The notes below the pieces were generated by a model. That model did not search any database and was not told the DNA's origin. It saw only the letters and a list, made by a program, of their open reading frames with translations. A program made the translations under genes and the position numbers. Source: Henriciella marina DSM 19595 (GTDB lineage: Bacteria; Pseudomonadota; Alphaproteobacteria; Caulobacterales; Hyphomonadaceae). Taken from it: a DNA stretch of 64,000 nucleotides. The stretch is from the NCBI RefSeq assembly GCF_000376805.1, contig NZ_AQXT01000002.1, forward strand, positions 2,790,001 to 2,854,000. The letters run 5' to 3'. Of the stretch, positions 29,046-46,014 are shown piece by piece. Positions within the stretch are counted from its first letter, which is position 1, and every line of letters begins with the position of its first letter.

Positions 29046-29075
29046 GGGGTATAGTGATGTTCAAAATAAATTATT
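29046..29075 (+). repeat. left terminal inverted repeat of the casposon
   Basis: Begins GGGGTATAGTGATGT. The outer 15 bp match the right end perfectly in inverted orientation; over 30 bp the match is 26 of 30, the inner part sharing AAATTATT. Confidence 0.9.
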
Positions 29076-29240
29076 CGTGACCCATAACCAGTCCCTCGAT
29101 CGAATGTTGGGTGAGCGGGACTCCGAGAGCGGTTTGGTGCCGGTTGAGCGAGACATCGATCTCCAATTGAAAACGCTTGGAATTTAGCGCTTCAACAGTA
29201 ATGTAATTTATCACGGCTTGTAGGACAGCTACGGTCCATA

Positions 29241-30170
29241 TTGAGTGTTGGGTTTACATGTTACATGGCTTTGGCACCGAAATTACCAACGGGGTTGGAC
29301 GACAATAGAAATAGAAGATTTCGTCCTAGGAATTCCCTTAGATATAATTTACGCCGATACCTTCACCTGAATGGTATTTTTCCGGATGTGGAAAACCCGC
29401 ATACATTCTGCGAAAAAATTTGGGTTAGAATGCTTTTTGACAGGCGTCCAATACTTGCAGAAGCATCTGATAAGTTGCAGACAAAACGCCTTGCCAAAAA
29501 ATTTCGGATACCGTGCCTGCCAGCGTTGAGCGTACATCGAGTTCCAATCACACCAGACCATTTTGATGGCTCGCTACGACCAACCATTGTGAAGGCTAAT
29601 CATGGTAGCGGTTGGAATTATGTTGTTTCCAATAGGAATAGCTACGCCCCGAAATTGCTGTACAATTTAACACGCAATTGGCTGGCCTCTGATTACTCAG
29701 TTAGAAAATTTGAGTGGGCCTATTCTGGAGCAGCTCGACGCATTTTCATTGAGCCCCTCATTTTCCAGCACGGTCGAATTCCAGATGATGTGTCGCTCTT
29801 TTGTTTTCGAGGATTGGTTAGAGCTGTTTGCGTCACTTCCGACCGTTGGCAGGGAGCCAACAGAATTTGGTTTCTCGACCCATACTCGCCAACGCTGCAA
29901 AAGCGTTACTCTTTTGATATTCGAATGTTGGCGGTCGCCGCTGCAAAAATATCCGACGGCTTTGACTTTTTGCGCGTGGACTTCTTAGCTTTGCAAAAAA
30001 AGTTCTTTCTGAATGAGCTTACCGTATATCCGTCTGCGGGCATCAACACTATTATTCCAGAATTCGTGGACAGGGAACTTGGGAAATATTGGACAATCGA
30101 AGATTCCGTTAAGCTATATCCAAATGCTTTAGTACGGTTTCAAAGAGAATGCGATGACCTTCTTCATTGA
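29241..30170 (+). CDS. TupA-like ATP-grasp protein (surface polysaccharide/teichuronopeptide-type ligase)
   Basis: 309 residues. The N-terminal part NPHTFCEKIWVRMLFDRRPILAEASDKLQTKRL follows the diagnostic TupA-like ATPgrasp pattern (NPKTFNEKI..LF/YDRxPLLT..ADK). Later: PTIVKANHGSGWNYVV (nucleotide-binding loop), FIEPLI, and DFLRVDFLALQKKFFLNELTVYPSAG with metal-binding Asp and Glu-Asn. Such proteins sit in capsule and exopolysaccharide clusters and are thought to attach amino acids or similar groups to glycans. It is the first gene inside the left end of the casposon, strongly AT-rich, and converges on the SGNH gene with a 62-bp overlap. Confidence 0.82.
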   Translation: MSVGFTCYMALAPKLPTGLDDNRNRRFRPRNSLRYNLRRYLHLNGIFPDVENPHTFCEKIWVRMLFDRRPILAEASDKLQTKRLAKKFRIPCLPALSVHRVPITPDHFDGSLRPTIVKANHGSGWNYVVSNRNSYAPKLLYNLTRNWLASDYSVRKFEWAYSGAARRIFIEPLIFQHGRIPDDVSLFCFRGLVRAVCVTSDRWQGANRIWFLDPYSPTLQKRYSFDIRMLAVAAAKISDGFDFLRVDFLALQKKFFLNELTVYPSAGINTIIPEFVDRELGKYWTIEDSVKLYPNALVRFQRECDDLLH

Positions 30171-30741
30171 GATGCACTCCATCGGAATAAACCGCCTTTC
30201 CATAGAGCATATCCCAAGCGTCTATTTCAACGCAATGATGCGAAGCTAAAACTTCTCTGGCTGCCGATCGGAACCTTTGAATATTGTCGTTTAAGTAGTA
30301 GTAGGGTCCGAGAGGGTTGGTGCGAGATTCATCGACTGGAGGAATGCCTAACAAATAAACGTCTTGGCACATATCCTGAGCGTCACCTAATATCCTGTTT
30401 AGGTTAGACTGGAAATCCAGAAGAGCTAATTCGGATGATCTTGGGTCATCCGCGACTTTCAGACGACTATCGTTAGTTCCAACGCCGATTATTAATGTTG
30501 GAACTTTTCTGGCGCTAACTTCCGCGACAAGACGGCTTTTCAAATTCTCTGTATTGTCGCCGCCAATACCAAGATTGAATACCGCTGACATTTTGTTCCG
30601 GGATTCAAGCTCTCGCCTTAGTAATCCTACCCATCCGCCATTAATCGTGTCGTGGCGGCCATAAACAATGCTGTCCCCAATAGCCGCTATTTTTCTTTTT
30701 TGTTCAGTAGCTTTCGGACTTCTCCTAAATAGATTGAACAT
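30109..30741 (-). CDS. SGNH/GDSL hydrolase
   Basis: 210 residues. All four blocks are visible: AAIGDSIVYG (nucleophile Ser), NLGIGGDNT (oxyanion Gly), IIGVGTNDSRL (Asn) and YSDGVHLNEEG (Asp-His). Probably a cytosolic or membrane-associated esterase or O-deacetylase acting on glycans or acyl carriers; no signal peptide. It overlaps the glycosyltransferase gene by 17 bases upstream and lies last in a four-gene minus-strand operon. Its 3' end overlaps the ATP-grasp gene on the other strand. Confidence 0.85.
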   Translation of the reverse strand: MFNLFRRSPKATEQKRKIAAIGDSIVYGRHDTINGGWVGLLRRELESRNKMSAVFNLGIGGDNTENLKSRLVAEVSARKVPTLIIGVGTNDSRLKVADDPRSSELALLDFQSNLNRILGDAQDMCQDVYLLGIPPVDESRTNPLGPYYYLNDNIQRFRSAAREVLASHHCVEIDAWDMLYGKAVYSDGVHLNEEGHRILFETVLKHLDIA

Positions 30742-31990
30742 ATTGAATCACCTTTTCAAAGCCTGAGATTAAATCTAACGATCTGATATACTCACGATTT
30801 GCTTTTCCTACCTTAATTTGAAGATCGGGCTCGAAAGCGGTTGCCAATTTATCGGCCAGCTCTGTTGAGCATTGATCAAGGCTCTCGTGTCGGTCAACGA
30901 AAAGTCTTTGAATATTTAGCGTAGACACGCACTCAGAAACGCCTCCGATGTCCATTGCAACCACCGGCTTTCCTGCAAAGGCCGCCGAAAGTACAGATGA
31001 AGGCCGGGGGTCCTCAAAATCGTTCTCGCCACAGGCCGTGTGTAAACAAACGTCGATCGCAGAGTACATATCAGGCAGATGTTCTATGGGTACATTTGCA
31101 ATTGCTATTTTACTGGTAATTTGTCGCCTTTCCACCTCCCGTGAAATAGGCAATATATCTCCTTCGCCGAAGAAGCATAGTTGTGTATTTAGAAGCTTGG
31201 CTTGGCAAAACGCATCAAGAGCTTTGAGCGGAGATTTATCCTTATGAATTCTCCCTACTACGCCGACCCAACGCTTTCCAGAGTCCAGAGTCCCAAACCT
31301 GGGCTCGGACAGCGCGGCAAGTATTTCTTTTGCACGCACGACATCGTTTACCCCATGCGATTCAGGAAAACTCGGAACAATTCCAGAAATCTGCAGTCCA
31401 GCCGCTTCCATTTTTGTGCGCTGAAACTCGGATACACAATATAGAGCGTCGCACTTCCTCAAAGATTTGAGGTAAATCGAACGAAACGATCTTGCGGCGA
31501 AAATAGAAGAAAAGGGGTATGATTTCTCAGCCTCTCGAAATGGCCAAAAGTATCCGTCTTTGCCTCGCAAGAAGCACACGATTGACTTTACGCCAAGCCT
31601 GCGAAGAGCATCCATCTCCGGTTCCAGAACCGCAAGTTCTGGAAAAGCGGAAACGAAAAAAATTGAGTCGATATGCTGAGTCCGGACAATCTCGTTTATG
31701 CGCGCGGAAAGTTCAAAATGGTTCAAACTAATAGTCGACTTAGACAGTGCACATTGGCCATAAAAGAATAGCTTTAACTGGCTTGGATTTGTCGATGCAT
31801 TAACCTGCGCCGCAACTTCGCCGCTCGCAAGATGCTTCGGCATAAGGAGGTACGAAGTATGTCCGAGGCTACCGAGGATCCTTGTGAGTGGGCGGACAAA
31901 CGATATCGTGTGGCCAGCCATTGAGATGACGTCATCATTGGGGTCATGGACATCCGCAAATGCCTTCTTGCAAACTATCAAGATATTCAT
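30725..31990 (-). CDS. glycosyltransferase, GT-B fold (family 4-like)
   Basis: 421 residues. The C-terminal half has the GT4 layout: KRWVGVVGRIHKDKSPLKALDAF, LCFFGEGDILP, HLPDMYSAIDVCLHTACGENDFEDPRPSSVLSAAFAGKPVVAMDIGGVSECV. The E-x7-E nucleotide-sugar signature appears in modified form (NDFEDPRPSSVLSA). It likely adds a sugar to a surface polysaccharide precursor. The ATG overlaps the stop of the hexapeptide gene (ATGA), and its stop overlaps the SGNH gene, so the genes are translationally coupled. AT-rich. Confidence 0.87.
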   Translation of the reverse strand: MNILIVCKKAFADVHDPNDDVISMAGHTISFVRPLTRILGSLGHTSYLLMPKHLASGEVAAQVNASTNPSQLKLFFYGQCALSKSTISLNHFELSARINEIVRTQHIDSIFFVSAFPELAVLEPEMDALRRLGVKSIVCFLRGKDGYFWPFREAEKSYPFSSIFAARSFRSIYLKSLRKCDALYCVSEFQRTKMEAAGLQISGIVPSFPESHGVNDVVRAKEILAALSEPRFGTLDSGKRWVGVVGRIHKDKSPLKALDAFCQAKLLNTQLCFFGEGDILPISREVERRQITSKIAIANVPIEHLPDMYSAIDVCLHTACGENDFEDPRPSSVLSAAFAGKPVVAMDIGGVSECVSTLNIQRLFVDRHESLDQCSTELADKLATAFEPDLQIKVGKANREYIRSLDLISGFEKVIQYVQSI

Positions 31991-32616
31991 GTCTGAGGCG
32001 AGGGAAGTAGCACCCTTCCCGGCATGGCCTCGTAGTTAATTCTACAATTAAACCCATCGGCAATAATTGCACCGAACAGCTTGTGCCCTGTGCAAACCAG
32101 TTTTCCATCTACATTGAGATACACGAATTCGCGCTTCAAATTGCGTACGGCTGTGATGAATCCCGCTGACAACGTTACATCAGCACCAACCAACGAATGT
32201 CCCAAATAGCTTGCATGTGCCATTTTTAGTCGAGATACAGCTATGGTTGTTCGAATTTCTGCGCCCGGTCCCACATAGGACCCAGGACCAATCACCGTCG
32301 GGCCAAAAATTGTTGAATTCGGACCAATTTCGCATTCGTCCAAGATGACAACGTCGCCAATTAAATGAACGCCGCGGTGTATGACTGCGGATTTTGAGAC
32401 AAGAGAAAGCCCACTCGTTCGCGCCTCTTTCAATCTTGTCGCCGTTTCTATTTCATTGAATGCTGACCTGCCGGATAGGCTTTCAGTCCGGAAAGTCTTC
32501 AATTCGTTGAAGGCTTTGAGCGCCAATAGCTGCGATCTCCACCAGATCGGTGATGAGAAAAGTGAGAACGACACAGGTAAGCTTTTCTTGATGAAGTTCG
32601 GAACATTATGGTGCAT
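31987..32616 (-). CDS. left-handed beta-helix (hexapeptide) protein, possible acyl/nucleotidyl-transferase
   Basis: 209 residues. Residues about 75-150 form hexapeptide repeats: AVIHRGVHLIGDVVILDECEIGPNSTIFGPTVIGPGSYVGPGAEI, then RLKMAHASYLGHSLVGADVTLSAGFITA, which resembles the C-terminal acetyltransferase domain of GlmU-type sugar nucleotidyltransferases (GHSLVGxxVxLSAG). No nucleotidyltransferase N-domain is present. Likely an acyltransferase acting on a sugar in the polysaccharide cluster. Overlaps the membrane-protein gene by 11 bases. Confidence 0.75.
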   Translation of the reverse strand: MHHNVPNFIKKSLPVSFSLFSSPIWWRSQLLALKAFNELKTFRTESLSGRSAFNEIETATRLKEARTSGLSLVSKSAVIHRGVHLIGDVVILDECEIGPNSTIFGPTVIGPGSYVGPGAEIRTTIAVSRLKMAHASYLGHSLVGADVTLSAGFITAVRNLKREFVYLNVDGKLVCTGHKLFGAIIADGFNCRINYEAMPGRVLLPSPQT

Positions 32617-33370
32617 CAGTACCCTTTGGCTCTTTCGGCTCAGATACTATTTTGGTTTCCATGTTGTTGTCAGATTGCTCTGGCTCAATCACGTGGAGAG
32701 ACGCTGGCGACATGTTGTCGAGCTTGGTCGCCTCATTGCCAGGGGTAATTTCGTCTTCCTCACCTTGAGGGGGCACGCCTGACAGGAAATTTCCGACTGC
32801 TGGTGCGATGTTCAGTGAAAATATCGCTACCCAGGTAGCAACAAACCCCCAGATAAGCGCCTGCATCAACTTACCTGCACTCAACCTAGTGCGCTCTAAG
32901 GCCAAAAAAACTTTCAGATGCCGCGCAAATCCGTTTCTGATGCCCGCGAACGCTACGGAATCTGATTTCACTTCGGTCAGTGGTAATACCGTATACGTTT
33001 TTGTTGAAAGCATCTGAGCTTCCAGGTCCTCAATTACGGGTCGCCACCTACTGAGATAATATCCCGACTTATTATTCATCATAAGCCAGATCCAAGAAAA
33101 ATACACACCTAGTGTTGAGGCAATCAGTTTCATGTCAAACTTTATTTCTATAGACAATGCTGCCCCGACGAGCACTCCATTTACTATCAGCATCAGATTA
33201 TTCCGAACCCAATACCGATCTGCTTCTCGGTCCCAAATACTAACAACCGTTGAGTGTACTTGCGCTAGTGCCTGCGCATCTACCGAACTTTCCGATGCGC
33301 TTCCGGCGTCCCCAGGTTTGCTTGGCTCACCTTCTGAGTTTGTTGGTTTTGGGGGCTCTGCTTCACTCAT
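32606..33370 (-). CDS. multi-pass membrane protein of unknown function
   Basis: 254 residues. The first 35 residues are Pro/Ser/Glu-rich, then helical VHSTVVSIWDREADRYWVRNNLMLIV, two membrane helices (about residues 57-75 and 85-100), a cytoplasmic stretch with SRWRPVIEDLEAQMLS, and a third hydrophobic segment LIWGFVATWVAIFSLNIAP (about residue 180). The C-terminal tail is acidic and disordered-looking. Possibly related to RipA-type octameric membrane proteins or to two-helix membrane effectors of bacterial defence; I cannot decide. First gene in the operon with the hexapeptide, glycosyltransferase and SGNH genes. Confidence 0.6.
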   Translation of the reverse strand: MSEAEPPKPTNSEGEPSKPGDAGSASESSVDAQALAQVHSTVVSIWDREADRYWVRNNLMLIVNGVLVGAALSIEIKFDMKLIASTLGVYFSWIWLMMNNKSGYYLSRWRPVIEDLEAQMLSTKTYTVLPLTEVKSDSVAFAGIRNGFARHLKVFLALERTRLSAGKLMQALIWGFVATWVAIFSLNIAPAVGNFLSGVPPQGEEDEITPGNEATKLDNMSPASLHVIEPEQSDNNMETKIVSEPKEPKGTDAP

Positions 33371-33531
33371 TGTCCGAACCTGATGGTCAGCCTTTTCACG
33401 CGGAACGCCTCGTAAAGAACGACGCCGAGCACGACGCTATCTTAAGTTATTGAAATATAAAAGCGTGATAAAATGTGCAACTTGCCGTTTATAAAAGTCC
33501 TTACCTGCATGCAGCCTAAGTGCACGTTCGC

Positions 33532-35358
33532 TCAATACGTTCGGGCTGCATTGATTTGACTAACCAAAAGAGGGCTTGGTCCATCGCGTGGTGGTGCATC
33601 TACTTGTTTGGTTTCCTTGCCAATTAACCTTACGCCAGTCATAGCGATGTGACGCCGACAAGTGACCCCCTGATGCAGCGGAGCGCCATTGTCGAACTTG
33701 TCTTCCGGACTGAGGTGATAAAGCGCGAGCGCATCGGCATAGGTTTTCAAAGCACCAATCGGAACGGGCTCACCCGTCTCGCGATCAAAAACAAGCTCAG
33801 CCAGTTTGTCGGCATCCCGCTCATAGGGAGCAATCGGCTTCGGCAATTCTCGCTTTTTAGGGCGTCCGCGCTTTGACGGATCAACCTCTTCAATCGGCAT
33901 ATCGAGCCAGGCTTCCGTAAGCGCCGTTGGCGCGACCATGAACCCGAACGGCTTCACTTTCTCAGAGTATGGCTTGCCCGCATTGAAGTGCTTCATGTAG
34001 CGCAGCATTTCCGGGCTGCTGGCATTCCAACGCATCAACGCCGGATTGGTAAGCGCTGGGTGATAGTCCAGCGGCACTTGGTCCGGCGTGCCGTCGATCG
34101 CGGCCTTTAGAATGAAGAACCAAAAATCATACTGCCAGCGGTGGATGCCCATCGCCCGCAAGTTTTCGATCGGGTCTGGAACGCCTGGAGCCGGATTATC
34201 CTCACCATAGGGCGGCAACCACTGGCCAAGCCCATGCGCAGACGCCTTGCGGATAATGGGCGACCCACCGTCCGCGATATTGAACAGCGCATACCGCTTG
34301 GCAGAAATGGCCCAGGCAAATAGCGGTTCAATCTCGTCTTTCGAACCGGGCGCATAGTTTACATCTTCAATCTGAAGAATGGAGCCCGGCTTCTGGTACG
34401 GATTGAGATTAACGAACCAATCGACAACCGCCCTTGCCGACTGCTGGAAGTCTGCCCGATCAACGCCATCAGACCGCGCAAGCGCGATACTGTCGGTATC
34501 GCAGAACACCCAGCCAAGCCCATTGTCAGCCGCAACGGTTTCAGCGCAAGCGAGCATGAGCCGCGCCGCTCCGGTGATCATCGCAGCCAAAACGGGATTG
34601 AAATAGGAGCCCGGATATTCGACGGCTTTTAACTGGATTGTATGCCGCTCTCCATCCAGCCCGAATACGTTCAGGGGTAGCTTGTCGTTTGACGTATCGT
34701 GCCGGATTTCTGCGAAGATGCCGTAGCAAGTCGAGTTTGCGAGAATTTTAAGCTGCTTCTCGATCGGGTCGCCCTGTCGCTTGGCCTCATCCCTCATATC
34801 GATGAGACGAACGAACAGGTCTTCTGTATTGGGATCGAAAAGATATTCGTCCCGGCCCAAAAGCTTCATTGGTCTGAGATCTGATTGTTTAGGCCCTGGC
34901 ACGAAGCGGACGGCCCTATCGATTTTCGGCGCTTTGCCCGTGAAGAGTTTCGAGGCGACAAGATCAGCCAGCGTGTACCAGACCGGCTGATTTGAAGTCA
35001 GGCTGTTCACACCGATCGTCTGGTTCTGCCGCCCGTCTGAATATCGCGCCCGCACCGGCACGATGTCACCATCCGGTGAAAGCTGCACGATCGCATGAAG
35101 CTTTGGCCAAACATCCTTTTGCTTGAGGTCATCAAGCGTCACGGTGTCGAGGAAGCGTTGAACATTCGCGGTATCGTCGAAGTGCTCGAAATGTGCCGCG
35201 ACCAAGAAGGCATTGAGCTTCATCAGCGCATTGACGGATGGATACATGGATTTGAAGTCGCAATAGAGAACTTCGGTAATTGCCCGGCGAATTCGGACTT
35301 CTGCCCGCCCGCCATAATAGGTAGCCATGATCGGCCCGAAGATTTGACGATCAAGCAT
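33532..35358 (-). CDS. casposon family B DNA polymerase, polymerase subunit
   Basis: 608 residues carrying only the polymerase part of a family B enzyme. Motif A is DFKSMYPS (Asp34), motif B is KILANSTCYG (Lys204, Asn208, Tyr212), motif C is FCDTDS (Asp287, Asp289); all catalytic residues are present. The thumb-like remainder runs to the C-terminus. The exonuclease domain is in the preceding ORF, which ends inside this start (ATGCTTGA, 8-base overlap). A GGAGAG site 6 bases before the ATG shows that this start is used in its own right. It would copy casposon DNA during transposition. No TPR1/TPR2 protein-priming insertion was recognised. Confidence 0.88.
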   Translation of the reverse strand: MLDRQIFGPIMATYYGGRAEVRIRRAITEVLYCDFKSMYPSVNALMKLNAFLVAAHFEHFDDTANVQRFLDTVTLDDLKQKDVWPKLHAIVQLSPDGDIVPVRARYSDGRQNQTIGVNSLTSNQPVWYTLADLVASKLFTGKAPKIDRAVRFVPGPKQSDLRPMKLLGRDEYLFDPNTEDLFVRLIDMRDEAKRQGDPIEKQLKILANSTCYGIFAEIRHDTSNDKLPLNVFGLDGERHTIQLKAVEYPGSYFNPVLAAMITGAARLMLACAETVAADNGLGWVFCDTDSIALARSDGVDRADFQQSARAVVDWFVNLNPYQKPGSILQIEDVNYAPGSKDEIEPLFAWAISAKRYALFNIADGGSPIIRKASAHGLGQWLPPYGEDNPAPGVPDPIENLRAMGIHRWQYDFWFFILKAAIDGTPDQVPLDYHPALTNPALMRWNASSPEMLRYMKHFNAGKPYSEKVKPFGFMVAPTALTEAWLDMPIEEVDPSKRGRPKKRELPKPIAPYERDADKLAELVFDRETGEPVPIGALKTYADALALYHLSPEDKFDNGAPLHQGVTCRRHIAMTGVRLIGKETKQVDAPPRDGPSPLLVSQINAARTY

Positions 35359-36259
35359 CGTAATCTCTCCTAAGCAGAGGGCGAATGTTCATCTCGCGAA
35401 GCAGGGCTTTGCCGAGACTGGCTTCGCTCAGGATACGCTTGAGCGGCGTCGATAGTCCGAAACCAGCATAGATTTTGGCGAGGGCTTCATAACACTCCCA
35501 GGTCGCCTGGACGTCATCTCGTGCATAGCTCAGATATTCCGGCGTCAGCGGGCCTCCATGCTCTTCGGTCTCCTGCTTCTGTGTTGGCGTATTCAACCGC
35601 TTGGCTAGAGCGGCGAGCGAATACCGGCCCGTCAGCAAGGCCGCCGCAATTGTCTTGGCATCAATGAACGTCCCACGATTGCTCGCCGGCTTCACATTTC
35701 GCTTTCGCATACTGCGAGGCTGCTTTGGTTTTCCAGGAGCGGCAAAATCTATCAGGGCCGTCGTCGGGTTGAGATGTTTGATGCGAATGTTCGGATCAGA
35801 CTTCCAGCGGGTCAGGCGGAATGTGAACCCGCCAAACATCGAGCCGCGCGCTTCACCGGAAGCAAGAGCAATACGAGCAATATCGAACGGCAGATTAAAC
35901 CCGATGATCGCGCCATTCGCGAGATAACCAATATCGAGAATGATCGTTCGCCGAAACGCTTCTATCGGAATGACGTCAAGATCATGAGCCGACGCGTAGG
36001 CCAAGACAACTGCCAGGTCAGCATCTGGCAGCTCGTCTGCAATGAAGATGACTTCATATTTCAGCGTCCCGGCATGCCGGACTTGAGCAAACCCCACGCG
36101 AAGCTTTTGGAGGGCATCAACGGTTGTTTCTGTATCGAAGATGACCTGCCAATCCGACGTGATGTCGAATTCGAAGCCAGCCGGGCGGAAGACTTTCGGC
36201 GTCCAGTTCGGCGGTTCGGTATAGGCCCTGATGAAGAGATCAGTTTCGAGAACGCTCAT
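35351..36259 (-). CDS. casposon family B DNA polymerase, 3'-5' exonuclease subunit
   Basis: 302 residues with the three DnaQ-like exonuclease motifs used by family B polymerases: Exo I FDTETT (Asp42, Glu44), Exo II GFNLPFDIARI (Asn122, Asp126), Exo III YARDDVQATW (Tyr245, Asp249). No polymerase motif is present; the C-terminus (to LLRREMN-like NIRPLLRRDYDA) ends by overlapping the start of the polymerase ORF. Probably proofreading, assembling with the following protein. The 5' end overlaps the HNH gene by four bases (ATGA). Alternative: one ancestral gene split by mutation, but the overlap with a good ribosome-binding site argues for a functional split. Confidence 0.85.
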   Translation of the reverse strand: MSVLETDLFIRAYTEPPNWTPKVFRPAGFEFDITSDWQVIFDTETTVDALQKLRVGFAQVRHAGTLKYEVIFIADELPDADLAVVLAYASAHDLDVIPIEAFRRTIILDIGYLANGAIIGFNLPFDIARIALASGEARGSMFGGFTFRLTRWKSDPNIRIKHLNPTTALIDFAAPGKPKQPRSMRKRNVKPASNRGTFIDAKTIAAALLTGRYSLAALAKRLNTPTQKQETEEHGGPLTPEYLSYARDDVQATWECYEALAKIYAGFGLSTPLKRILSEASLGKALLREMNIRPLLRRDYDA

Positions 36260-36636
36260 TGGTCTGCCTCCTTCTCATCGAGGCGGGCTTGTTCAGCCTC
36301 TTCAATCAGCGACTGGCCAAATGCCTTCAGCGTCTTGGCAATTTGAAGCAGCCAGTCTGCCAGGGCGTCGAGATAGCGCCCGATCGTCTCGCGATCGGGG
36401 TCTTGAGTTTTGGGCCTAAACGACATGTCTTTCTCCTTTTCGGTTGAGATGCGATGGCAGTTGCTGCAAAGCGCTCCGCCCGTGCCGATCGCGAACTTGC
36501 TGGGAATGAGGTGGGCGAATTCGAGGGCTGCCGGGTGAGCGTTGAAGGCACACCAGAGGCAGATTGGATGACGCGATTTCAGACGCCGGAAATCGGCCTC
36601 GCGTCGTAGTTCTTTTTTCGTGATTTCAGGCAGCAT
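36256..36636 (-). CDS. HNH-type endonuclease-like protein of the casposon
   Basis: 126 residues. A treble-clef arrangement with HPICLWCAFNAHPAALEFAHLIPSKF and ALCSNCHRIST gives two CxxC pairs and the His-x-His/Asn core of HNH proteins (AHLIPS, CHR). After residue 75 the chain is helical and charged (EEAEQARLDEKEADQ). HNH nucleases accompany Cas1 and PolB in many casposons; their role in mobility is not settled. Lies between the HTH gene (9-base gap) and the exonuclease gene (4-base overlap). Confidence 0.78.
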   Translation of the reverse strand: MLPEITKKELRREADFRRLKSRHPICLWCAFNAHPAALEFAHLIPSKFAIGTGGALCSNCHRISTEKEKDMSFRPKTQDPDRETIGRYLDALADWLLQIAKTLKAFGQSLIEEAEQARLDEKEADQ

Positions 36637-36645
36637 GGAGGGCTC

Positions 36646-37227
36646 CTAGTCAGGGTTTGTGATTGCGTAGATTTCGTGGAATTCCGGCTCGTCTTTCAGC
36701 GCGTAGCGAATGAGCGCATTGCGATCGGTCTCGAAGGGGTGGAAGCGGCCTTTAAGATCGGTCAGGCCGTCACCGCGATACGGGTCGAGCACTTTCGGGT
36801 CTTTGGTCCGAAGGAATTTCTTGATGTCGTTGAAATAGTGACCGGCCCGGCTGGCAGGGGCGAAGCCTGCGACCGTAATCGCCTTAGTCGAAGCATTTTC
36901 GATCATGGGAATACGGCGGGGGCGGGTGTCACCGATTACCCATCGATTGGCTTGTTTCAAACCAAGGCCGGATTGTGCGAGATACCAGGAAAGGCGTTCC
37001 GGTGAGATGCCAGCCGCTCTGGCGGCGGCGGTCATCGATAGACCGCCGTTCATGACTTTCAGGGCTTCATTGATCTTCGCGCTCGCGCGGGGTGCAGCGG
37101 GTTTGCCGCTTGCGCGAGTTTCATCCGGTTTAGGATGACCGCGCGTCTGGGATAGCGTCAGACCGCGTGCGAGACCGCGCGCTTTGCGGCGCTGGTACTC
37201 TGCTTTGTAGTCGCGCTTCTTTGCCAC
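36646..37227 (-). CDS. helix-turn-helix protein, first gene of the casposon minus-strand operon
   Basis: 193 residues. A basic N-terminus (MAKKRDYKAEYQRRKARG) precedes INEALKVMNGGLSMTAAARAAGISPERLSWYLAQSGL (about residues 52-87), a clear helix-turn-helix of the type used in casposon and phage regulators. The second half, beginning ANRWVIGDTRPRRIPMIENA, includes basic and aromatic residues and ends in DEPEFHEIYAIT; no family recognised. Probably binds casposon ends or controls the divergent promoters. The divergent spacer to 37375 contains two direct repeats. Confidence 0.75.
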   Translation of the reverse strand: MAKKRDYKAEYQRRKARGLARGLTLSQTRGHPKPDETRASGKPAAPRASAKINEALKVMNGGLSMTAAARAAGISPERLSWYLAQSGLGLKQANRWVIGDTRPRRIPMIENASTKAITVAGFAPASRAGHYFNDIKKFLRTKDPKVLDPYRGDGLTDLKGRFHPFETDRNALIRYALKDEPEFHEIYAITNPD

Positions 37228-37287: not shown

Positions 37288-37352
37288 TCCAGTTCGCGTA
37301 GGAGTCCTAAAATAGCTCTGGCCCGTGACTTGCTTCCAGTTTGCGTAGGATT
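37288..37352 (+). promoter_or_regulatory. two 18-bp direct repeats in the casposon divergent promoter region
   Basis: TCCAGTTCGCGTAGGAGT at 37288-37305 and TCCAGTTTGCGTAGGATT at 37335-37352 match in 16 of 18 positions with starts 47 bp apart (about 4.5 helical turns). They lie in the spacer between the HTH operon (minus, start 37227) and the regulator-cas1 operon (plus, start 37375), fitting operator sites for a casposon-encoded HTH protein. Confidence 0.55.
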
Positions 37353-37374
37353 TGTAACTTGGGAAACTAGAGCG

Positions 37375-38319: not shown

Positions 38320-39400
38320 AACGTTCGAAAATTTGGTGCCGGAAGACCAAGACGAATGGAGTGCCCGAAGCAACTATTGGCTAGCCCGATCCGAAACATG
38401 TCAATCCCCTCGCAAACGGCGCGAGCGTCAGAAACGCCCGCTCATTCTCGTCGGCTATGGCCTATCCATAAAAGTCGAGAAAGGTCGCCTAATCATCCAG
38501 GACGGCACGACGCATTTTCCGAGCAAACCAGTTCAGCATGTTTTCTTCAAAGGCAGTCTCGACCTGCCACCGCGTATCGTCATCATTGATGGGGCCGGTT
38601 CTATCACGCTGGATGCGGTCGACTGGCTCACGGAACAGGGGATCGCCCTTATCCGCATCAAATATGATGGCTCGAATACGTCTGTGATGAGCCCAACCGG
38701 CTATGCGGGCGATCCTGAAAAAATTGCATGGCAAATGAAGGCCCGCGAAAGCGAGGCGCTGAAGATCGAGTTTGCAGCGCCGCTCACCATTAAAAAACTG
38801 GAAGCCGCGCTTGTGACGCTTCGCGATTGTCTGCCTGCGTCTGCCGATCGAAGCCGTGCGATCGAGGCAACTTCGGCATGCCTGGAATTCATCGAAAGCG
38901 GGCGAGCCGACAAAACACAGAAGCTTCGCGGTCAGGAAGGCAAAGCGGCCTACTGGTATTGGCGGGCCTGGCACCCTCTCGACATCAATTGGAAAGCGGC
39001 AAAGCAGTTTCCCATTCCTGAGGAGTGGCGGACGTTCACCGCAAGGTCATCGGTCAATTCATCGAAGAAAGAGCCAAACCGAAACGCATCGCACCCGATC
39101 AATGCGATGCTGAACTACGTTTACACAGCACTTCTCACACAAACGAAAATCAAAGCGATCGCAGACGGCTATGATCCGATGATCGGCGTGATGCACAATC
39201 AGCGCGAGAAGAACAAAGACAACACGCCGTCATTCGCTTTGGATTTGATGGAACCGATGCGGCCCGTGGTCGATCGGGTTATCTTGAAGCTGATCGCTGA
39301 AGAGACGTTTTCGGGAGCGGATTTTGATTTGCAGAGTGATGGAGTGGTGCGGGTGAATCCGGTCCTCGTCAAGACTTTGGTTCGAGTCCTTAACGTGTGA
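38309..39400 (+). CDS. cas1: Cas1-family casposon integrase (casposase)
   Basis: 363 residues. The C-terminal helical domain carries the Cas1 active site: Glu210 in RGQEGKAAYWYW, His296 in GVMHNQ, Asp312 and Glu315 in ALDLMEPMRPVVDR, and HPINAMLNYVYTALL. The N-terminal beta domain (about residues 45-130) has GYGLSIKVEKGRLIIQ and IDGAGSITLDAVDWLTEQGIALIRI, typical of Cas1. In CRISPR systems Cas1 integrates spacers with Cas2; here no cas2, no other cas gene and no repeat array occur, and family B polymerase genes sit beside it, as in casposons. It ends soon after the core, so no C-terminal HTH extension is seen. Coupled to the preceding gene by 11 bases. Confidence 0.95.
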   Translation: MRHETFENLVPEDQDEWSARSNYWLARSETCQSPRKRRERQKRPLILVGYGLSIKVEKGRLIIQDGTTHFPSKPVQHVFFKGSLDLPPRIVIIDGAGSITLDAVDWLTEQGIALIRIKYDGSNTSVMSPTGYAGDPEKIAWQMKARESEALKIEFAAPLTIKKLEAALVTLRDCLPASADRSRAIEATSACLEFIESGRADKTQKLRGQEGKAAYWYWRAWHPLDINWKAAKQFPIPEEWRTFTARSSVNSSKKEPNRNASHPINAMLNYVYTALLTQTKIKAIADGYDPMIGVMHNQREKNKDNTPSFALDLMEPMRPVVDRVILKLIAEETFSGADFDLQSDGVVRVNPVLVKTLVRVLNV

Positions 39401-39735: not shown

Positions 39736-42700
39736 GTGCCTGATGTCGAGTTATGGACCAACGCATTGAAGGAACAGTGGAGAAACGTCCGTGACATTGG
39801 CGACGGACTTCAACCATTCTTTTGTGCCAAAGAATCCGAAGTTACGCCTTATATTGAAAGTCTGGCCAGTCGACTTCGGGATGTGTGCATCCAAAATGAG
39901 AGCTTCTTCCGAAAGGCTGTTTTCAAAACTCTCGAAAACGTTGCTGAAAAAGTCTCGGCCATCGAAGCAGGCATGGTCACGAGGTCAGAAGCAGCTAATC
40001 TGAAAGCCGATGCACTGCCTGCCGAATATGCTGCAGAGCACTGCGAAAGAGAAGCTGATGCGCTTCGTCGATTTCGGTTGGTTCCGGAATTCAAAGCCCG
40101 GGAGAAGGCTGAACGGCTCGCAAATCGATTGACTTTCGGTGACTTGAGACTTGCTCCGAATGAGGTTCGCTCCTCCACGCTAGGGCTGTGTATCCGTACT
40201 CTGTCGCCGGAGCCGACGAGATCGGTCGCGCAACAGTTGCTGGTTGAAGTGGGCAACTTACCTCGCTCTCCGGAACTGGAAGTGGCACAGGCCCTTTTTT
40301 CCGGACCATACGGTGACACATCAGTGCGCAAAGCTTTGGTCGCCCTAAATACAAATGACAGCTGGTCGGCAGCGTTTATCCAACAATTCAATTCGACATC
40401 CCCAGAAACCGCTCTGGAATGGCTGACAGATGCCGGGCATGAATTCGACAAGCTCGATACTCACGCCAAATGTGCGATCATTGTCAATCTGATGGAAAGA
40501 GGAAATTGGGAGCTCGCGAAGCGTCTAGGAGAACAACTGACGGAAATCGATTTCGAATTTTCTCCAGTAGCGGAGGATTTCTTTGGATTAGCGCTAACAG
40601 GCACACTATCGCCGGAGGAACACAGGAGTGTTCTGCTATTCGGGGTCCCCTTTTCCGCAGATAGGTACCGGTTGTCCGACACAGGCGAGAGTTTAGCGCT
40701 GCGCCACAGGGCTATTGGTCTGTTTGGAAGCGCCAGCGAACGTTACCTGCAGAATGGATTGCGCACGAGAGCACTAGAGACCAACAAGTTGGGCCTCTGG
40801 TTGAGTTTACTGTCCACTGAACGAAATGCAGATGCCACTGCGAGACTAAAAGCGCTCGTTTTGAATCCGCAGCAAGCCATCCATTTCGTCAACCTTGGCC
40901 TAAGATTCGGTCCGGCGATCGATCGGGAGCAAGCTGATAAAATAATCAAGAGACATGTTGCGCTGGAAGGTGAATTAGGCCGTTCAGGCAGTGAGGCCCG
41001 ATTAAGTTGGATTCTGCTCGAGGATAATGCTGACGAAAGAGCGAATTTGCTGAATTCGTATGTGGGTAAGCTTCGCACTCATCTAGATGCCTCAGTATTG
41101 AATATGATGCTCGTCGAGACGCTTTGCGTGGCAGGTAGAATTTCGGAAGCAAAACGCAAAGCAGCTTCTATTGAAGAATTGCTGGATCAGCAGCGTGCTC
41201 AGTTAGATAGAATTATTCAGCAAAGCGAAAGCGGAGATCATTTCGAAACGCATGAAGCGGCCTTCCTGGAATCAGATTCTCTCGAAGACTTGGAAATGCT
41301 TCTCCAAAGCCTCGAAAAATCAGGTGATCCGCTAAAGCGTTCCGAGTATGCGCTCGAGCTCTTTGCTCGAACCCAATCTCTTAGTGATGCAAAGAGATAC
41401 TTGTCCGCCCTCGACGATGCCAAAAATGTTGCGGAACTAGATGAATTCCTCGATCGCCATGTTGAGTTGTCCAAGCAGTCTCACCAGATCGCGCTTCGAT
41501 ATGCGCAATCGCTCTATTTTCGAGGCCGGATTCAGGAGGCCTTGGAGTACGTCAGTCGTCTGAATGAAGACCATCCAAACCGTACCGTGCGTCAGCTACT
41601 GATTTCCTGTTTGCTTGAATGCGGTCAGTGGGAACGGCTGGGCCCGTTGTGTGAGGAGGCATTCGAAAAACGCGAAGACCTCACTAGCTCTGAGCTACTG
41701 GAGTACGCGCAAATTGCAACTTATTCGCGTCCTTCCGTTGTTGAGCCTATTGTCAGACACGTTGCTAACAACGCGCAGACAGATGCGACCTCCTTGGTAG
41801 CATGCTACCACATTGCGAGCAGCAGTGGCTGGGAGGGAGACGCCGAAGTTTCATCCTGGCTTCAACAAGCCGTGCAGTTGTCCGACCGAGACGGGCCGAT
41901 AAAGCAGATTTCTCTTGATGATTTGGTTCGTGATGCACCGGATTGGCACGAGCGGCAACGCGAGCTTTCTGAAGGTTTGCGGACCGCTAGCTATCCCCTG
42001 GAAATCTTCGGTGAAGCTAGTAATCGCAGCATATGTGAGCTTACGGCCCTTCGAGCCGCACGAAATCGCGACGCGGGTGATTTACGGTTCAAAGAACCTA
42101 TACCCGCGTTCTTTGGAAAAGAGCGAGAGACTCTTGAGGAGTTGCCCGAATGTGTACTCTGCGATCCCACATTTCTTATCAGCCTTGCAGACTTAAAATT
42201 GTTGGATCAATTCAAACAGAGTTTTGGGAGCGTCGTGATACCGCACGGAACACTCCAAAAACTTTTCAACAACGTCCGAGAAATATCCTTCCATCAACCC
42301 TCAGTCGTAGAAAAAGCCCGCAATGTCATTTCCTTAGTTGGGATCGGCGCTTTAGAGGCCATAAATGAAGCAGTTGAAGTTCCACCGCACCTTTTGACAG
42401 AGGCGGGATTGCGAACGGGCCGCCTTCTTCAAATTGCAGCAAGTGAGTCCCCTCCGGAACAGGGCGCTATTCTTGTCGTTCATCCAGGGCTGATTAAGAA
42501 AAGCACAAGCCTAGGTCGAGAAACGGCGGATTTGCGTGGATTGGAAAATGTAGTCGTTGGCTGTTTGCAGCTAACTAATTTTCTTCGGGATAACGGCCGG
42601 CTCACCCAAAGCGAGTATCAAACCGCTAGCAATTTTTTGAAGCTCCAAGGGGACCAGAACGCCGAATTCGACGATCGAATTAAGAAAGGCTGTACGTTGC

Positions 42701-43695
42701 TCATAGACGGGCTCGCCTTAAGCTACTTGAGCGATCTGAATATGCTGCAACCCTTAAGTCGATCCGGCTTGAAGCTCAAAATTTTAAATGCGGAGCTCCA
42801 GGAAGCTTATTCGCTTGTGCAATTCAATGAACATGCCGATTCAGCAATTGAATGCGTTGAGCGTCTCAGGGCTTTTTTGGAACGAGAGATCACCAGCGGA
42901 TTGGTGAAAATTGCCTCTCGTGATGTATATGAAACGGAGTATTCGAGCACTTCTTTGTTATTGAATATGGTCAAGCAGGCCCACAATTATGATGCGGTCT
43001 GTTGTGATGATCGAAGCATTAATAAGCTTCGCCAGGCCGGAAACGATCAAGGGTATGTGCCTGTTCTGAGCTCCCTAGACATACTCAATTATTGGTCTGC
43101 GTCGTCCAATCAAGCCTCGTATGATAAGTTCGAAACACTGAATCGGATGAGGAAGGCCTTATACATATTCGTTCCGCTCAGGGCGGACGAAATCGTTGAG
43201 GCGTTGACGCACTCAACAATAAGAGACGGCAAGATATCTGAAACAGCCGAATTGCGGGCAATACGTGAGTACATCGAGTTTGTTTCAATGACCGACTGGC
43301 TCTTAATTCCAGATGAATCCAACTGGGTGCAATCACTGCATAGCGCTTTCTTCGACGCGATTAGGATGCTTTGGGATGACCAATCAAGCATTGAGCAGGC
43401 TCCCGCGCGTTCGTCGTGGGTCTTGGAATTATATGACATTCGTGACTGGGTCAGATTCAGACAATTCAAGTCTTCTGAGTTGGTCCAACTACGATCAACT
43501 CAACTATGCTTTTTAGCGGGCTTGGCATTCCAGGTGTCCGACAGCACGCAGCAACAATTTATCGATTGGTTCGATCAAGACGTAGCAGAGCCCACAAAAC
43601 TTGGGGACCCCCTTACCTACGAGGCCTACCTCGAAGCGTCGAAGAAATATTACCGCGAATTCTTTCGTCACTTGAAAGAAGGTGTCGATGCCTGA
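39736..43695 (+). CDS. large helical-repeat protein with PIN-like nuclease motifs (casposon cargo)
   Basis: 1319 residues from GTG 39736; coding character continues 84 codons upstream to about 39484, so the true start may be ATT with AGGAG six bases before. The first 750 residues are helical repeats resembling TPR/ARM-type solenoid. Later, at about residues 805-850, CDPTFLISLADLKLLDQFKQ gives one PIN-like segment, and at about 985-1090 a second shows LIDGLALSYLSDL, LNAELQEAY and AVCCDDRSINKL, an acidic pattern fitting a PIN ribonuclease. No known defence family is recognised. Followed by a second gene with a 14-base overlap. Large solenoid-nuclease proteins on mobile elements are often anti-phage effectors (inference). 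Confidence 0.62.
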   Translation: MPDVELWTNALKEQWRNVRDIGDGLQPFFCAKESEVTPYIESLASRLRDVCIQNESFFRKAVFKTLENVAEKVSAIEAGMVTRSEAANLKADALPAEYAAEHCEREADALRRFRLVPEFKAREKAERLANRLTFGDLRLAPNEVRSSTLGLCIRTLSPEPTRSVAQQLLVEVGNLPRSPELEVAQALFSGPYGDTSVRKALVALNTNDSWSAAFIQQFNSTSPETALEWLTDAGHEFDKLDTHAKCAIIVNLMERGNWELAKRLGEQLTEIDFEFSPVAEDFFGLALTGTLSPEEHRSVLLFGVPFSADRYRLSDTGESLALRHRAIGLFGSASERYLQNGLRTRALETNKLGLWLSLLSTERNADATARLKALVLNPQQAIHFVNLGLRFGPAIDREQADKIIKRHVALEGELGRSGSEARLSWILLEDNADERANLLNSYVGKLRTHLDASVLNMMLVETLCVAGRISEAKRKAASIEELLDQQRAQLDRIIQQSESGDHFETHEAAFLESDSLEDLEMLLQSLEKSGDPLKRSEYALELFARTQSLSDAKRYLSALDDAKNVAELDEFLDRHVELSKQSHQIALRYAQSLYFRGRIQEALEYVSRLNEDHPNRTVRQLLISCLLECGQWERLGPLCEEAFEKREDLTSSELLEYAQIATYSRPSVVEPIVRHVANNAQTDATSLVACYHIASSSGWEGDAEVSSWLQQAVQLSDRDGPIKQISLDDLVRDAPDWHERQRELSEGLRTASYPLEIFGEASNRSICELTALRAARNRDAGDLRFKEPIPAFFGKERETLEELPECVLCDPTFLISLADLKLLDQFKQSFGSVVIPHGTLQKLFNNVREISFHQPSVVEKARNVISLVGIGALEAINEAVEVPPHLLTEAGLRTGRLLQIAASESPPEQGAILVVHPGLIKKSTSLGRETADLRGLENVVVGCLQLTNFLRDNGRLTQSEYQTASNFLKLQGDQNAEFDDRIKKGCTLLIDGLALSYLSDLNMLQPLSRSGLKLKILNAELQEAYSLVQFNEHADSAIECVERLRAFLEREITSGLVKIASRDVYETEYSSTSLLLNMVKQAHNYDAVCCDDRSINKLRQAGNDQGYVPVLSSLDILNYWSASSNQASYDKFETLNRMRKALYIFVPLRADEIVEALTHSTIRDGKISETAELRAIREYIEFVSMTDWLLIPDESNWVQSLHSAFFDAIRMLWDDQSSIEQAPARSSWVLELYDIRDWVRFRQFKSSELVQLRSTQLCFLAGLAFQVSDSTQQQFIDWFDQDVAEPTKLGDPLTYEAYLEASKKYYREFFRHLKEGVDA

Positions 43696-45586
43696 CACGA
43701 GAATCCTTGCCGGCTATGTCCTTCAAAGAATACCTCAAACGCTTAGACTTGAGCTTATGCAGGACAGCAATTTTGCTACCGAGATAAACCCCAATATCAC
43801 ACCCACAATTTCGCCATTTGAGAACGTCTCTTTTAAGGTCGACGAGTTCTTCGAAGCGTTGAGATGTGCAGTTCGCAACGTCGGACAAAAATATAATCTT
43901 GAAACCCGAGACGGTCGAAAAGCAAAAATCGTCGTCGACGAGCAATTTAAAGCTTCCTGCGTTGTCGATGAAGTCACACTTCAATTACCCGAAAGTCGCT
44001 TATTGTCGGATGACATCGACACGAAACTGACGGGATTAAAGGCTCTCGCCTATGGAAAGCTACCGTCCGAGCGATACGAGACGTGGGAACGGCGAATAAC
44101 CGACGAAGTGTCATTCGATCTTTTGTTGGAATTATACGAAGACTGCCAAAATTCGCCGGTTGGTGTAATGGAACAGATAAGCGGCCTGCCAGAAAAGGGG
44201 TCGGCGCCGTGGACGCTCTTTCTGCCGCATTGTGACGTATACTGGCAACGCTTAGTCGGAGACTTTTCGCTAAATGGCTCGGTAGACGAGTGCGCGTCTC
44301 AAGGAATAGTAGCGCAATTGGAGCGTTGGAAGGGATTGGACGAGCCTGCACGCATCAAGCAATCATTAAGCTTGTGCGGTCAGTCCCAACTTTCGGACGT
44401 ACTTGCCAGCACTCTCAACATTTACGACCACTTGGACGAAGTTGTTGATTGGGTACTGCTCAAAAAGGCTCCTATTACGGTCGTAGGATTGACCGAACTG
44501 CTACTGGCAAACTTGTGCAAGTACAGCGGCTTTCAAGAGCGAATTGGGGACCTGGTCCACGCGTTTATAGAAATGAATCCTGACAAGGGGCGTCAACCTA
44601 GCTACACGATCGCTGCAAACCTATTTGCAGGTATTGACGGGCTATCTGCTCGGTTCGCCAAGTTTCAAAATGTCTCCATATTCTATAGGCGTTATGTGGT
44701 AAGCACGCAGGCAACGTTGATACACTCGGAACTCGGAAGCGACGATGAATTACTCGCTTCGATTTCTGAAAGCCTGTTCGCTCATTACTCGCAGAACTAC
44801 TTGCTCAAAACTCTCCTCGAAACTGTAGAAACGCCAAGCTGGCACGTTGATGGACTGACGACTAATTCACTTTATGCCGATCATGCAGGCCGCCTTTTCA
44901 ACAAGGCGTCACTAGTGATCGAACATATTTCATGTGAACGACTAAAAACTTTATTATTTGGGGATTCGGGAAGCCTGCAATCAGATTGCCTACAGATGGC
45001 CTCGTTTAGACCGGGCTATTTAGAAGGAAGCCAAGCACCAACCAATCTCCTTCCGGTCGACTTGCACCGCGCCATCGACGAACAACTAAAGCTCGAAACG
45101 AATTCGGCTCGCGCATTTGTCGCACTTACAAATGCTATCCCAACGTTTGCGATCCCCGATATCTTTGTGGCACGAGCGAAGGATAAGATTGATCAAATAG
45201 GCCTTTTTATTTCCGACGTGAAAGAGCGCTATGAGGTTTGGGCCATACTAGGGAATCTGGCTCGACTTGCGGTTGTTTGCGGCAACGAGGACTTGGCCAA
45301 TTCTCTTGCCACACTGATCAAGCGGTACACCAATAGTGTGGAGTTCGCGCTCAATGCGACGGATGCCTTTAGATTGCTGCTATTGCTGAGCGCGGTATGT
45401 CGTGACCCAGAAGACAGATACAGATGGATTCAGCAGCAACTAGAATTCCTAGCTTTTTCTGAGTTTTCCAAGGAGCAACTCGTGCGGCTCGAACAAGAAC
45501 TTTTCGAGCTCTGCGCTATTGAGCCCGCCATGCGAGGCCATCTGGCTAAATCGATAGCCGCAATCAGGTATACAGCACGCCAATAA
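43682..45586 (+). CDS. unknown helical protein, partner of the PIN-like protein
   Basis: 634 residues, overlapping the preceding gene by 14 bases, so made together with it. The N-terminal 100 residues have strand-helix text with a possible nucleic-acid or protein-interaction fold; the remainder is mostly helical with leucine-rich segments and no catalytic motif I recognise. AT-rich like the rest of the right cargo. The stop lies only 2 bases from the inner end of the right inverted repeat, so the gene is the last in the element. A defence complex with the preceding protein is an inference from coupling only. Confidence 0.6.
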   Translation: MSMPDTRILAGYVLQRIPQTLRLELMQDSNFATEINPNITPTISPFENVSFKVDEFFEALRCAVRNVGQKYNLETRDGRKAKIVVDEQFKASCVVDEVTLQLPESRLLSDDIDTKLTGLKALAYGKLPSERYETWERRITDEVSFDLLLELYEDCQNSPVGVMEQISGLPEKGSAPWTLFLPHCDVYWQRLVGDFSLNGSVDECASQGIVAQLERWKGLDEPARIKQSLSLCGQSQLSDVLASTLNIYDHLDEVVDWVLLKKAPITVVGLTELLLANLCKYSGFQERIGDLVHAFIEMNPDKGRQPSYTIAANLFAGIDGLSARFAKFQNVSIFYRRYVVSTQATLIHSELGSDDELLASISESLFAHYSQNYLLKTLLETVETPSWHVDGLTTNSLYADHAGRLFNKASLVIEHISCERLKTLLFGDSGSLQSDCLQMASFRPGYLEGSQAPTNLLPVDLHRAIDEQLKLETNSARAFVALTNAIPTFAIPDIFVARAKDKIDQIGLFISDVKERYEVWAILGNLARLAVVCGNEDLANSLATLIKRYTNSVEFALNATDAFRLLLLLSAVCRDPEDRYRWIQQQLEFLAFSEFSKEQLVRLEQELFELCAIEPAMRGHLAKSIAAIRYTARQ

Positions 45587-46014
45587 TTTTCGTTGGACAT
45601 CACTATACCCCCTCCCGAATCCGGGAGAGGGGAGGTGGCAGATAGAGGCGGAGTGGCTTGCTCTTGGCCAAGGCGTTCAACTTCAGCCCTTACAGCCATT
45701 ATTAGATGATGCGGGCTCATCGCGGCTTCAGCCGGGATGCGGAGTACGCGCCAGCCGGCATTGCTCAACCGCTGATCTCGCTCGGCGTCGTTCAGTTTCA
45801 CATCTTTGCGGTCGTGAATGGCGCCGTCGATCTCGAGGGCGAGTTTGATTGGGCGGATCGCGAAGTCGACGGTGAGACCTTCGATCGCCACCTGCCTCCG
45901 GACGGTGTGCCCTTCCTTTCGAAGCTGGCGGAGGGTCTCCCACGCCTTGCGTTCCGGCAGGTTGGCCTCTCGGCGCAGGCTCCGGGCCCGTCGGGTTGAA
46001 GGGTGGTCGCTCAT
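45430..46014 (-). CDS. DUF559 endonuclease-domain protein, C-terminus replaced by casposon sequence
   Basis: 194-residue frame, start ATG 46014 (MSDHPSTRRARSLRREANLPERKAWETLRQLR). The DUF559 domain (about residues 10-120) is a small PD-(D/E)XK/VSR-like fold: VDFAIRPIKLALEIDGAIHD, DAERDQRLSNAGWRVLRIPAEA. Residues after about 133 are read from the REP-like repeat and then antisense through the casposon end (PDSGGGIVMSN...), ending at 45430. Before insertion the frame would have ended ...PDSGEGRG and a stop four codons beyond the palindrome. Nuclease activity is plausible but unproven; the tail is unlikely to matter. Confidence 0.8.
   Translation of the reverse strand: MSDHPSTRRARSLRREANLPERKAWETLRQLRKEGHTVRRQVAIEGLTVDFAIRPIKLALEIDGAIHDRKDVKLNDAERDQRLSNAGWRVLRIPAEAAMSPHHLIMAVRAEVERLGQEQATPPLSATSPLPDSGGGIVMSNENYWRAVYLIAAIDLARWPRMAGSIAQSSKSSCSSRTSCSLENSEKARNSSCC
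45584..45613 (-). repeat. right terminal inverted repeat of the casposon
   Basis: Outer end reads ACATCACTATACCCC on the plus strand, the perfect inverted copy of the left end over 15 bp; 26 of 30 positions match across the longer repeat. The last cargo gene stops just before it. Confidence 0.9.
45614..45629 (+). repeat. right target-site duplication of the casposon
   Basis: Second copy of CTCCCGAATCCGGGAG. Joined to the left flank it rebuilds one REP-like unit. Confidence 0.88.
45614..45655 (+). repeat. right part of the interrupted REP-like repeat
   Basis: The palindrome followed by AGGGGAGGTGGCAGATAGAG, matching the intact unit at 46211-46251 (AGGGGAGGTGCCAGATAGAG). It also encodes the last native residues of the DUF559 protein. 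Confidence 0.75.

Follow-up and report, generated by a model that had tools for sequence, protein, structure and literature searches.

A 64,000-nucleotide window of the Henriciella marina DSM 19595 genome (positions 2,790,001–2,854,000 of the larger contig, NZ_AQXT01000002.1; two contigs in all, completeness rated 100%) harbors a segment in which genes for a Cas1-family casposase, a family B DNA polymerase (PolB), an HNH nuclease, a helix-turn-helix (HTH)-type protein and seven cargo proteins lie between terminal inverted repeats (TIRs) flanked by a target-site duplication (TSD) (Table 1). Judged from its sequence, this segment is very probably a casposon whose casposase is predicted to insert into short palindromes, duplicating the whole palindrome at both ends.

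The TIRs are perfect over 15 bp (GGGGTATAGTGATGT) and agree at 26 of 30 positions when extended, and they are flanked by the 16-bp duplication; an earlier note made on this DNA from the sequence alone had described both correctly. The 16,568-bp segment delimited there (29046–45613) had the right left end and ran 2 nt too far on the right, where the element stops at 45611. In the 3.28-Mb genome the TIR 15-mer occurs exactly at the two element ends only, a third place having two mismatches, and the TIR and TSD pair of the casposon scores 39 against 24.5 for the next-best pair of the locus. The length of the duplication falls inside the range reported for casposon TSDs (1–27 nt, median 15; PMC4046053).

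Among 35 casposon sources, the window included, homologues of Cas1 and of the HTH-type protein are found in all 35, of PolB in 34 and of the HNH nuclease in 25. The Cas1 residues Glu210, His296, Asp312 and Glu315, read earlier as an intact active site, are invariant across 14 aligned relatives, and the proposed HNH-like nuclease matches HNH families of PHROG. As to the HTH proteins that had been named, the 193-residue protein itself has no Pfam or PHROG match, and its homologue in a second casposon of the same genome matches HTH_Tnp_1 below the cut-off. The place of the 329-residue protein directly 5′ of cas1, which has homologues in the G035 and L079 casposons only, is taken in other casposons by MerR-like proteins, as seen by neighbor comparison.

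The family B polymerase motifs of the earlier note are present, distributed over two open reading frames (ORFs), a split on which that note was silent. Both ORFs match DNA polymerases of PHROG; their Pfam matches are all below the cut-off, and neither has a sequence match in the PDB. The polymerase ORF aligns to residues 315–913 of the 1002-residue PolB of the second casposon and the exonuclease ORF to residues 44–306, and the stop codon of the latter overlaps the start codon of the former, with AGGAGAG just upstream. PolB is a single ORF in 31 of 34 matches and is broken at another position in L093; the G008 PolB, however, 71–73% identical, is divided at this very position, its two ORFs overlapping as in the window. 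That the split reflects a recent frameshift or an error of sequencing is unlikely, since a polymerase about 27% diverged is split identically, and the split, kept through such divergence, is likely to be functional. The window PolB, HNH nuclease and HTH-type protein are closest to those of G008 (71–86%), while Cas1 is closest to that of G004 (81%) and G021 (76%; same genus), and the casposon is a mosaic whose core genes have different nearest relatives.

Table 1. Features of the casposon and its surroundings in the window.
Feature	Position	Strand	Detail	Basis
Left part of REP-like repeat	29012–29029	+	GCCCTCACCCC...	Sequence; alignment with uninterrupted copies in same genome
Left target duplication	29030–29045		CTCCCGAATCCGGGAG; 16 bp; 6-bp stem, 4-nt loop	
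Casposon	29046–45611		16,566 bp	Inverted ends and flanking duplication
Left terminal inverted repeat	29046–29075		Starts with GGGGTATAGTGATGT	Sequence
TupA-like ATP-grasp protein (cargo)	29241–30170	+		PF14305, 1.7e-13
GDSL-like hydrolase (cargo)	30109–30741	-		PF13472, 7.4e-24
Glycosyltransferase group 1 (cargo)	30725–31990	-		PF13692, 8.2e-9
Hexapeptide-repeat acyltransferase-like protein (cargo)	31987–32616	-		PF00132, 8.8e-10
8xMP membrane protein (cargo)	32606–33370	-		PF24838, 3.9e-14
PolB polymerase-domain ORF	33532–35358	-	Motifs DFKSMYPS, KILANSTCYG, DTDS	PHROG DNA polymerase, 4.6e-12
PolB exonuclease-domain ORF	35351–36259	-	Motif FDTET	PHROG DNA polymerase, 3.1e-6
HNH nuclease	36256–36636	-		PHROG HNH families, best 1.3e-7
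HTH-type core protein	36646–37227	-	193 residues	Homologues in 35/35 casposon sources; weak HTH match of homologue
Protein directly 5′ of cas1	37330–38319	+	329 residues	Homologues in G035 and L079 only
Casposase (Cas1 family)	38309–39400	+	363 residues	PF01867, 5.2e-33; tree; 6opm best PDB match (sequence, fold)
TPR/PIN protein, TPR-GreAB-C-PIN kind (cargo)	39736–43695	+	1319 residues	PF24407, 45.5 bits (cut-off 27); PF20698 below cut-off
Partner with permuted GreAB-C domain (cargo)	43682–45586	+	634 residues	PF24388, 24.8 bits, just under cut-off 27
Right terminal inverted repeat	45582–45611			Sequence
Right target duplication	45612–45627		CTCCCGAATCCGGGAG; 16 bp	
Right edge of interrupted REP unit	45628–45632	+	AGGGG	Alignment with uninterrupted copies
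Uninterrupted REP palindrome	46207–46230		Casposon-holding place in relative G004	REP pattern search; comparison with G004

Affiliation of the casposase

In a tree of 59 Cas1 sequences, a single clade (support 100) unites 47 casposases, among them that of Methanosarcina mazei (6opm). The window Cas1 falls in this clade, apart from the 12 other Cas1 proteins of the tree: 4n06, five whose genes are annotated next to cas2, and six distant proteins, of which four are encoded close to a repeat array. The same M. mazei casposase is the best solved structure by sequence (125 bits; next 88) and ranks first in a fold search with the Cas1 model (pLDDT 82.5; E 7e-17), the superpositions being loose (TM score 0.45–0.67). 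The strong matches of the window Cas1 to the Pfam and PADLOC Cas1 models would also be expected of a Cas1 island derived from a CRISPR (clustered regularly interspaced short palindromic repeats) system and merely resembling a casposon. This explanation is extremely improbable, contradicted as it is by the tree, PolB, the TIRs and the TSD. The window holds no CRISPR array (0 repeated 20-mers versus 17 in the positive control) and no Cas2 was found in the host genome by a search whose control was positive in 7 of 14 genomes; a CRISPR island is ruled out as far as sequence allows. The only two Cas1 genes of the genome each lie on a casposon. The casposon assignment of the earlier note passed every test run, and none of the three outcomes named there as speaking against it, including placement in a CRISPR clade and a nearby array, was seen.

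Henriciella marina DSM 19595 is among the hosts of the bacterial "family 3" casposons of Krupovic et al. 2014 (PMC4046053), a branch sister to the other casposons. The traits of this family seen here are the bacterial host and the HNH gene, the tree holding only one archaeal casposase. Bacterial casposons had been called rare, a relative term: 21 of 398 genomes of the order carry a casposase. No casposase relative was found in viral contigs, and a phage search gave one partial match at 31% identity. A plasmid search returned 56 records; among the 40 listed most are annotated as CRISPR Cas1, and the listed matches also include an unannotated, 49%-identical fragment on a Bradyrhizobium plasmid.

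Target sites in Henriciella and beyond

The 16-bp duplication forms the core of a palindrome that occurs at 16 places in the genome with at most three mismatches; four of these are casposon ends, leaving 14 units. It is a repetitive extragenic palindromic (REP)-like element, a short extragenic palindrome repeated in the genome. When the flanks of the window casposon are rejoined they form one normal REP unit, like the uninterrupted copies elsewhere in the genome. The second casposon of this genome (G000_b; C2:1654286-1670501), with 16-bp TIRs (GGGATAAGGGAAAGCA), a Cas1 41% identical to that of the window and the duplication CTCCCGGATGCGGGAG, sits in another copy of the same palindrome. Its site is empty in G017, where 48 identical bp run across the whole duplication, and in G016, where one base of the palindrome is changed. 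For the window copy, the check for an empty site proposed in the earlier note succeeded in part: the flanking DinB and DUF559 genes adjoin in G003 and the rejoined flanks give one REP, but the REP between the genes in G003 is a different one and the exact junction is thus not given. The evidence for mobility is this presence and absence of casposons between genomes. The casposons of the window, G004 and G008 occupy different units of the same chromosomal neighborhood, which lies before gyrB. Within cas1 of the second casposon (L003, 12582–12667), two perfectly inverted arms of 38 nt are separated by 10 nt; the 3′ arm encodes the conserved FFRGSLDLPPR and the 5′ arm is its reverse complement, as if formed by template switch. 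DUF559 (Vsr-like) genes stand repeatedly beside REP units (window 45430–46230, G004, G003, G019, G028), and this adjacency in several Henriciella genomes suggests that the two are linked.

The earlier note had correctly placed a REP-like unit at the flanks; palindromic targets as a rule of the group went unseen. A search for TIR and TSD pairs spanning cas1 covered 15 loci of the order (12 delimited), 49 of 80 genome-scan loci (15 delimited) and ten loci with longer flanks (three delimited: G404, G405 and G415C82), 30 delimited casposons in total. Some loci gave no ends, and the sample therefore consists of elements with clean ends; a weaker pair in G411 (score 30, palindrome CTCCGACAACGGAG) was left out of the count. 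As a negative control, none of 13 loci with a distant CRISPR-type Cas1 gave a pair above threshold. The duplication carries a centered stem (score of at least 6) in 23 of the 30 casposons, 21 of 27 and two of the three added later, with loops mostly of 3–7 nt, and the qualifying scores are reached at 0–1.4% of positions in the same locus. The target palindromes include REP units and transcription terminators.

The letters of the palindrome differ between sites while self-complementarity is kept. The outer pair is C-G in 27 of 27 sites and the edges are largely C[C/T]C, but the palindrome is more than a C-rich edge motif because re-dealt arms never match the observed pairing. When the right arms were re-dealt among the 30 sites, mean pairing was 53% versus 80% observed, and none of 5000 re-dealings reached the observed value; the same holds for the 27 sites left without three clear non-hairpins (86% observed versus 60%; 0/5000). 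The outer C-rich motif fits 23 of 27 sites; in 14 of these, complementarity extends to all three inner pairs, versus 0.9 expected from sites with the same outer motif in a 2.1-Mb background. The sites are not fully independent, since the elements are related by descent and three of them sit in a single REP family. In L086 (3790–3850) a hairpin lies between two TIRs, the left flank itself being a casposon end, as after tandem insertion into one hairpin.

Several observations weigh against a general palindrome rule. Ends were undetected at three of the 15 loci of the order (G039a, G069, G039b), for G069 with longer flanks as well, and at 34 of the 49 scan loci, 13 of which are the distant controls. 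Under the strict score, seven of the 30 casposons lack a centered stem: that of G091a (8 bp) is 2 nt off-center, that of L085 needs G-T pairs, that of G041 is weak, in L106 the TSD and one arm of a 10-bp palindrome overlap, and the duplications of L110, L115 and Nitrosomonas G415C82 form no hairpin. The stems of G021 and L086 pass only at 1.4% and 1.1% of locus positions. The clade of all hairpin users has a tree support of 49 and contains eight members of unknown target. For the window copy, no orthologous empty site with an identical REP was found. Finally, archaeal casposases use non-palindromic duplications, as in the M. mazei TSD (PMC10359463).

Two of the exceptions share a site. In Microvirga L110 (4500–19257) and the Hyphomicrobiales metagenome-assembled genome L115 (442–15627), the casposon interrupts GAGAACAAAAAAAGAAC, immediately upstream of a gene recognized by eye as recA, in L115 from its first residues only. 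An SOS-box-like motif, GAACAAAAAAAGAAC, stands whole on the recA side of both casposons; the form GAAC-N7-GAAC is that of the alphaproteobacterial SOS box. The third exception, the G415C82 duplication, is a non-palindrome.

Recognition of the target

Given that 23 of the 30 casposons duplicate a palindrome, the casposase likely selects palindromic DNA. A casposase tetramer with two-fold symmetry would hold the palindrome, and each 3′ end of the element would attack one strand at opposite palindrome edges, 14–23 bp apart; the single-stranded gaps would then be filled, and each side would gain a complete copy of the palindrome. Copying of the element would fall to the polymerase, whose exonuclease and polymerase chains are probably made by coupled translation. 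Since the hairpin survives on both sides, the terminator or REP would keep working and the site could be hit again. The casposase of M. mazei forms a pseudo-two-fold tetramer for which a symmetrized target works no less well than the natural one (PMC6977970), and a natural palindrome can be regarded as a symmetric target of that kind. By this analogy, the enzyme most likely recognizes C-rich half-sites that match each other on the two strands of duplex DNA, and the complementary inner arms would assist in that they bend, open or extrude the site.

The main alternative in which palindromy still matters is that the enzyme recognizes an extruded cruciform or single-stranded hairpin rather than duplex half-sites. 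Cas1-Cas2 integrates in vitro near cruciform-forming repeats. The inner pairs, which vary in letters yet stay complementary, and the lengths of the loops given above are both in keeping with such recognition, but the outer C-G pair, which never varies, and edges that are mostly C[C/T]C suggest that letters are read, stems of 5–8 bp extrude poorly, and a symmetrized duplex is enough for the M. mazei casposase (PMC6977970). We regard cruciform recognition as possible, though not the expected mode.

Two further explanations would make the hairpin incidental. The casposase could be directed to transcription termination, that is to intrinsic terminators, perhaps by way of a paused polymerase or R-loop. 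A T-run (at least four T, or A on the left) stands beside the hairpin at seven of 25 sites, a count that leaves out the two recA sites and three later ones. The target in Ruegeria is a conserved terminator beside gcvT (named by eye); G432 has it uninterrupted, matching the joined query along its full 640 bp at 84%, and two further species that were compared have hairpins of other letters. However, 18 of the 25 sites, all REP sites among them, have no such run, and two insertions lie before recA, so that this explanation appears improbable. Alternatively, recognition could be of the REP sequence as such or of some protein that binds there. The repeat has a conserved, leader-like GCCCTCACCCC side, and the three casposons in this one repeat family (window, G000_b and G004) share the same orientation relative to cas1, an agreement that could be due to chance at n = 3. 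Most relatives, however, use unrelated palindromes, and in G091 two similar casposons of one genome occupy two different ones; we give recognition of the REP itself little credence. Both pure REP-sequence targeting and pure terminator targeting are therefore unlikely, and selection of the palindrome by the casposase is the reading carried forward here.

Cargo and relation to known systems

The window casposon carries four surface-polysaccharide-like genes, the 8xMP membrane protein gene and the TPR/PIN and GreAB-C pair; none of these seven genes has a match in the other 34 casposon sources. Such cargo would pay for the ride of the casposon. A PADLOC scan of 84 cargo proteins of relatives gave as its top results DRT3a (four proteins), MADS mad2 (five) and mad3 (three) and type IIG restriction (three), and family matches of restriction-modification kind occur among the scanned cargo. 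The casposon of Hyphomonadaceae UBA5336 (G035 = L061, 5554–18825, contig DHQO01000001.1) has a casposase and PolB of its own and, next to them, a complete type II CRISPR-Cas9 locus with Cas9 (PF18541, 3.3e-24; PF13395, 1.5e-16), Cas1 (PF01867, 3.1e-31), Cas2 (PF09827, 9.1e-14) and an array in which a 36-nt repeat occurs 18 times. The spacers of this array have no match among phages.

Some further loci deserve mention. In Nitrosomonas sp. Nm166 (L188, 7717–13900), a casposon-type TIR end at 7717 has a 26-repeat CRISPR array just outside it, with a repeat judged by eye to be type I-E-like. A serine recombinase gene (PF00239, PF07508) lies inside the casposon of L101 (2958–4544), and genes in the Microvirga casposon (L110, 11372–18573) were read by eye as a type I restriction-modification set. 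Outside the casposon, the window encodes 6S RNA at 25806–25962 (Rfam RF00013, 53.3 bits).

The element resembles the family 3 casposons in its stand-alone Cas1, PolB, HNH nuclease, TIRs, TSD and intergenic place, and its nearest named relatives share the host genus Henriciella. It differs in its palindromic target, split PolB and the defense-rich cargo of its relatives, which are not among the features described in the available portions of PMC4046053 and PMC6614799; there, the targets of families 3 and 4 are described only as intergenic (PMC6614799; PMC4046053, section 7). MetMaz-C1 of M. mazei, whose casposase is the closest solved Cas1, has TIRs that start with GGGATATAG, resembling GGGGTATAG of the window casposon, but targets the end of a tRNA-Leu gene with a non-palindromic 14-bp TSD (PMC10359463). 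The nearest precedent for a palindromic target is the Aciduliprofundum boonei casposon, for which a palindrome, the T-psi-C arm of tRNA-Pro, has been proposed as part of the target (PMC9939771). In that case the palindrome lies beside the duplicated segment, whereas in the window casposon the palindrome itself is duplicated. REP elements are also a known target of insertion sequences (PMC1525189), which likewise use them as a safe site, with other transposases and no Cas1. A search of the open literature, with partial coverage that may have passed over an earlier mention, gave no report of palindromic or terminator casposon targets.

The reaction proposed here is the one that Cas1-Cas2 carries out in CRISPR adaptation, where DNA is integrated at the two edges of a palindromic repeat and the repeat is duplicated; casposons of the window type lack Cas2 and an array and insert a 10–17-kb element with TIRs. 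In its available portions, a review on CRISPR in mobile elements refers to casposons solely as the source of the adaptation module (PMC11656645). It is conceivable, if rather doubtful, that Cas1 integrases favored palindromes before CRISPR arose, that an entire bacterial branch of casposons homes to hairpins such as REPs and terminators and duplicates the full hairpin with each insertion, that the palindromic CRISPR repeat is a domesticated casposon hairpin target, that scars of the TIR-hairpin-TIR type seen in L086 represent a proto-array, and that the casposon carrying CRISPR-Cas9 shows the two systems still traveling together.

The conserved split polymerase, the insertions at recA promoters and the defense cargo, including a CRISPR-Cas9 locus, each raise a further question. 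The casposases characterized in the literature examined, as far as its available text goes, are archaeal, and two casposons in one complete genome, together with clean empty sites in relatives, would offer a practical bacterial model. Descent of the palindromic CRISPR repeat from a casposon target, a standing question, becomes testable. Above all, bacterial casposons, whose targets earlier descriptions give in their available portions only as intergenic, would gain a target rule: palindromic hairpins, duplicated whole.

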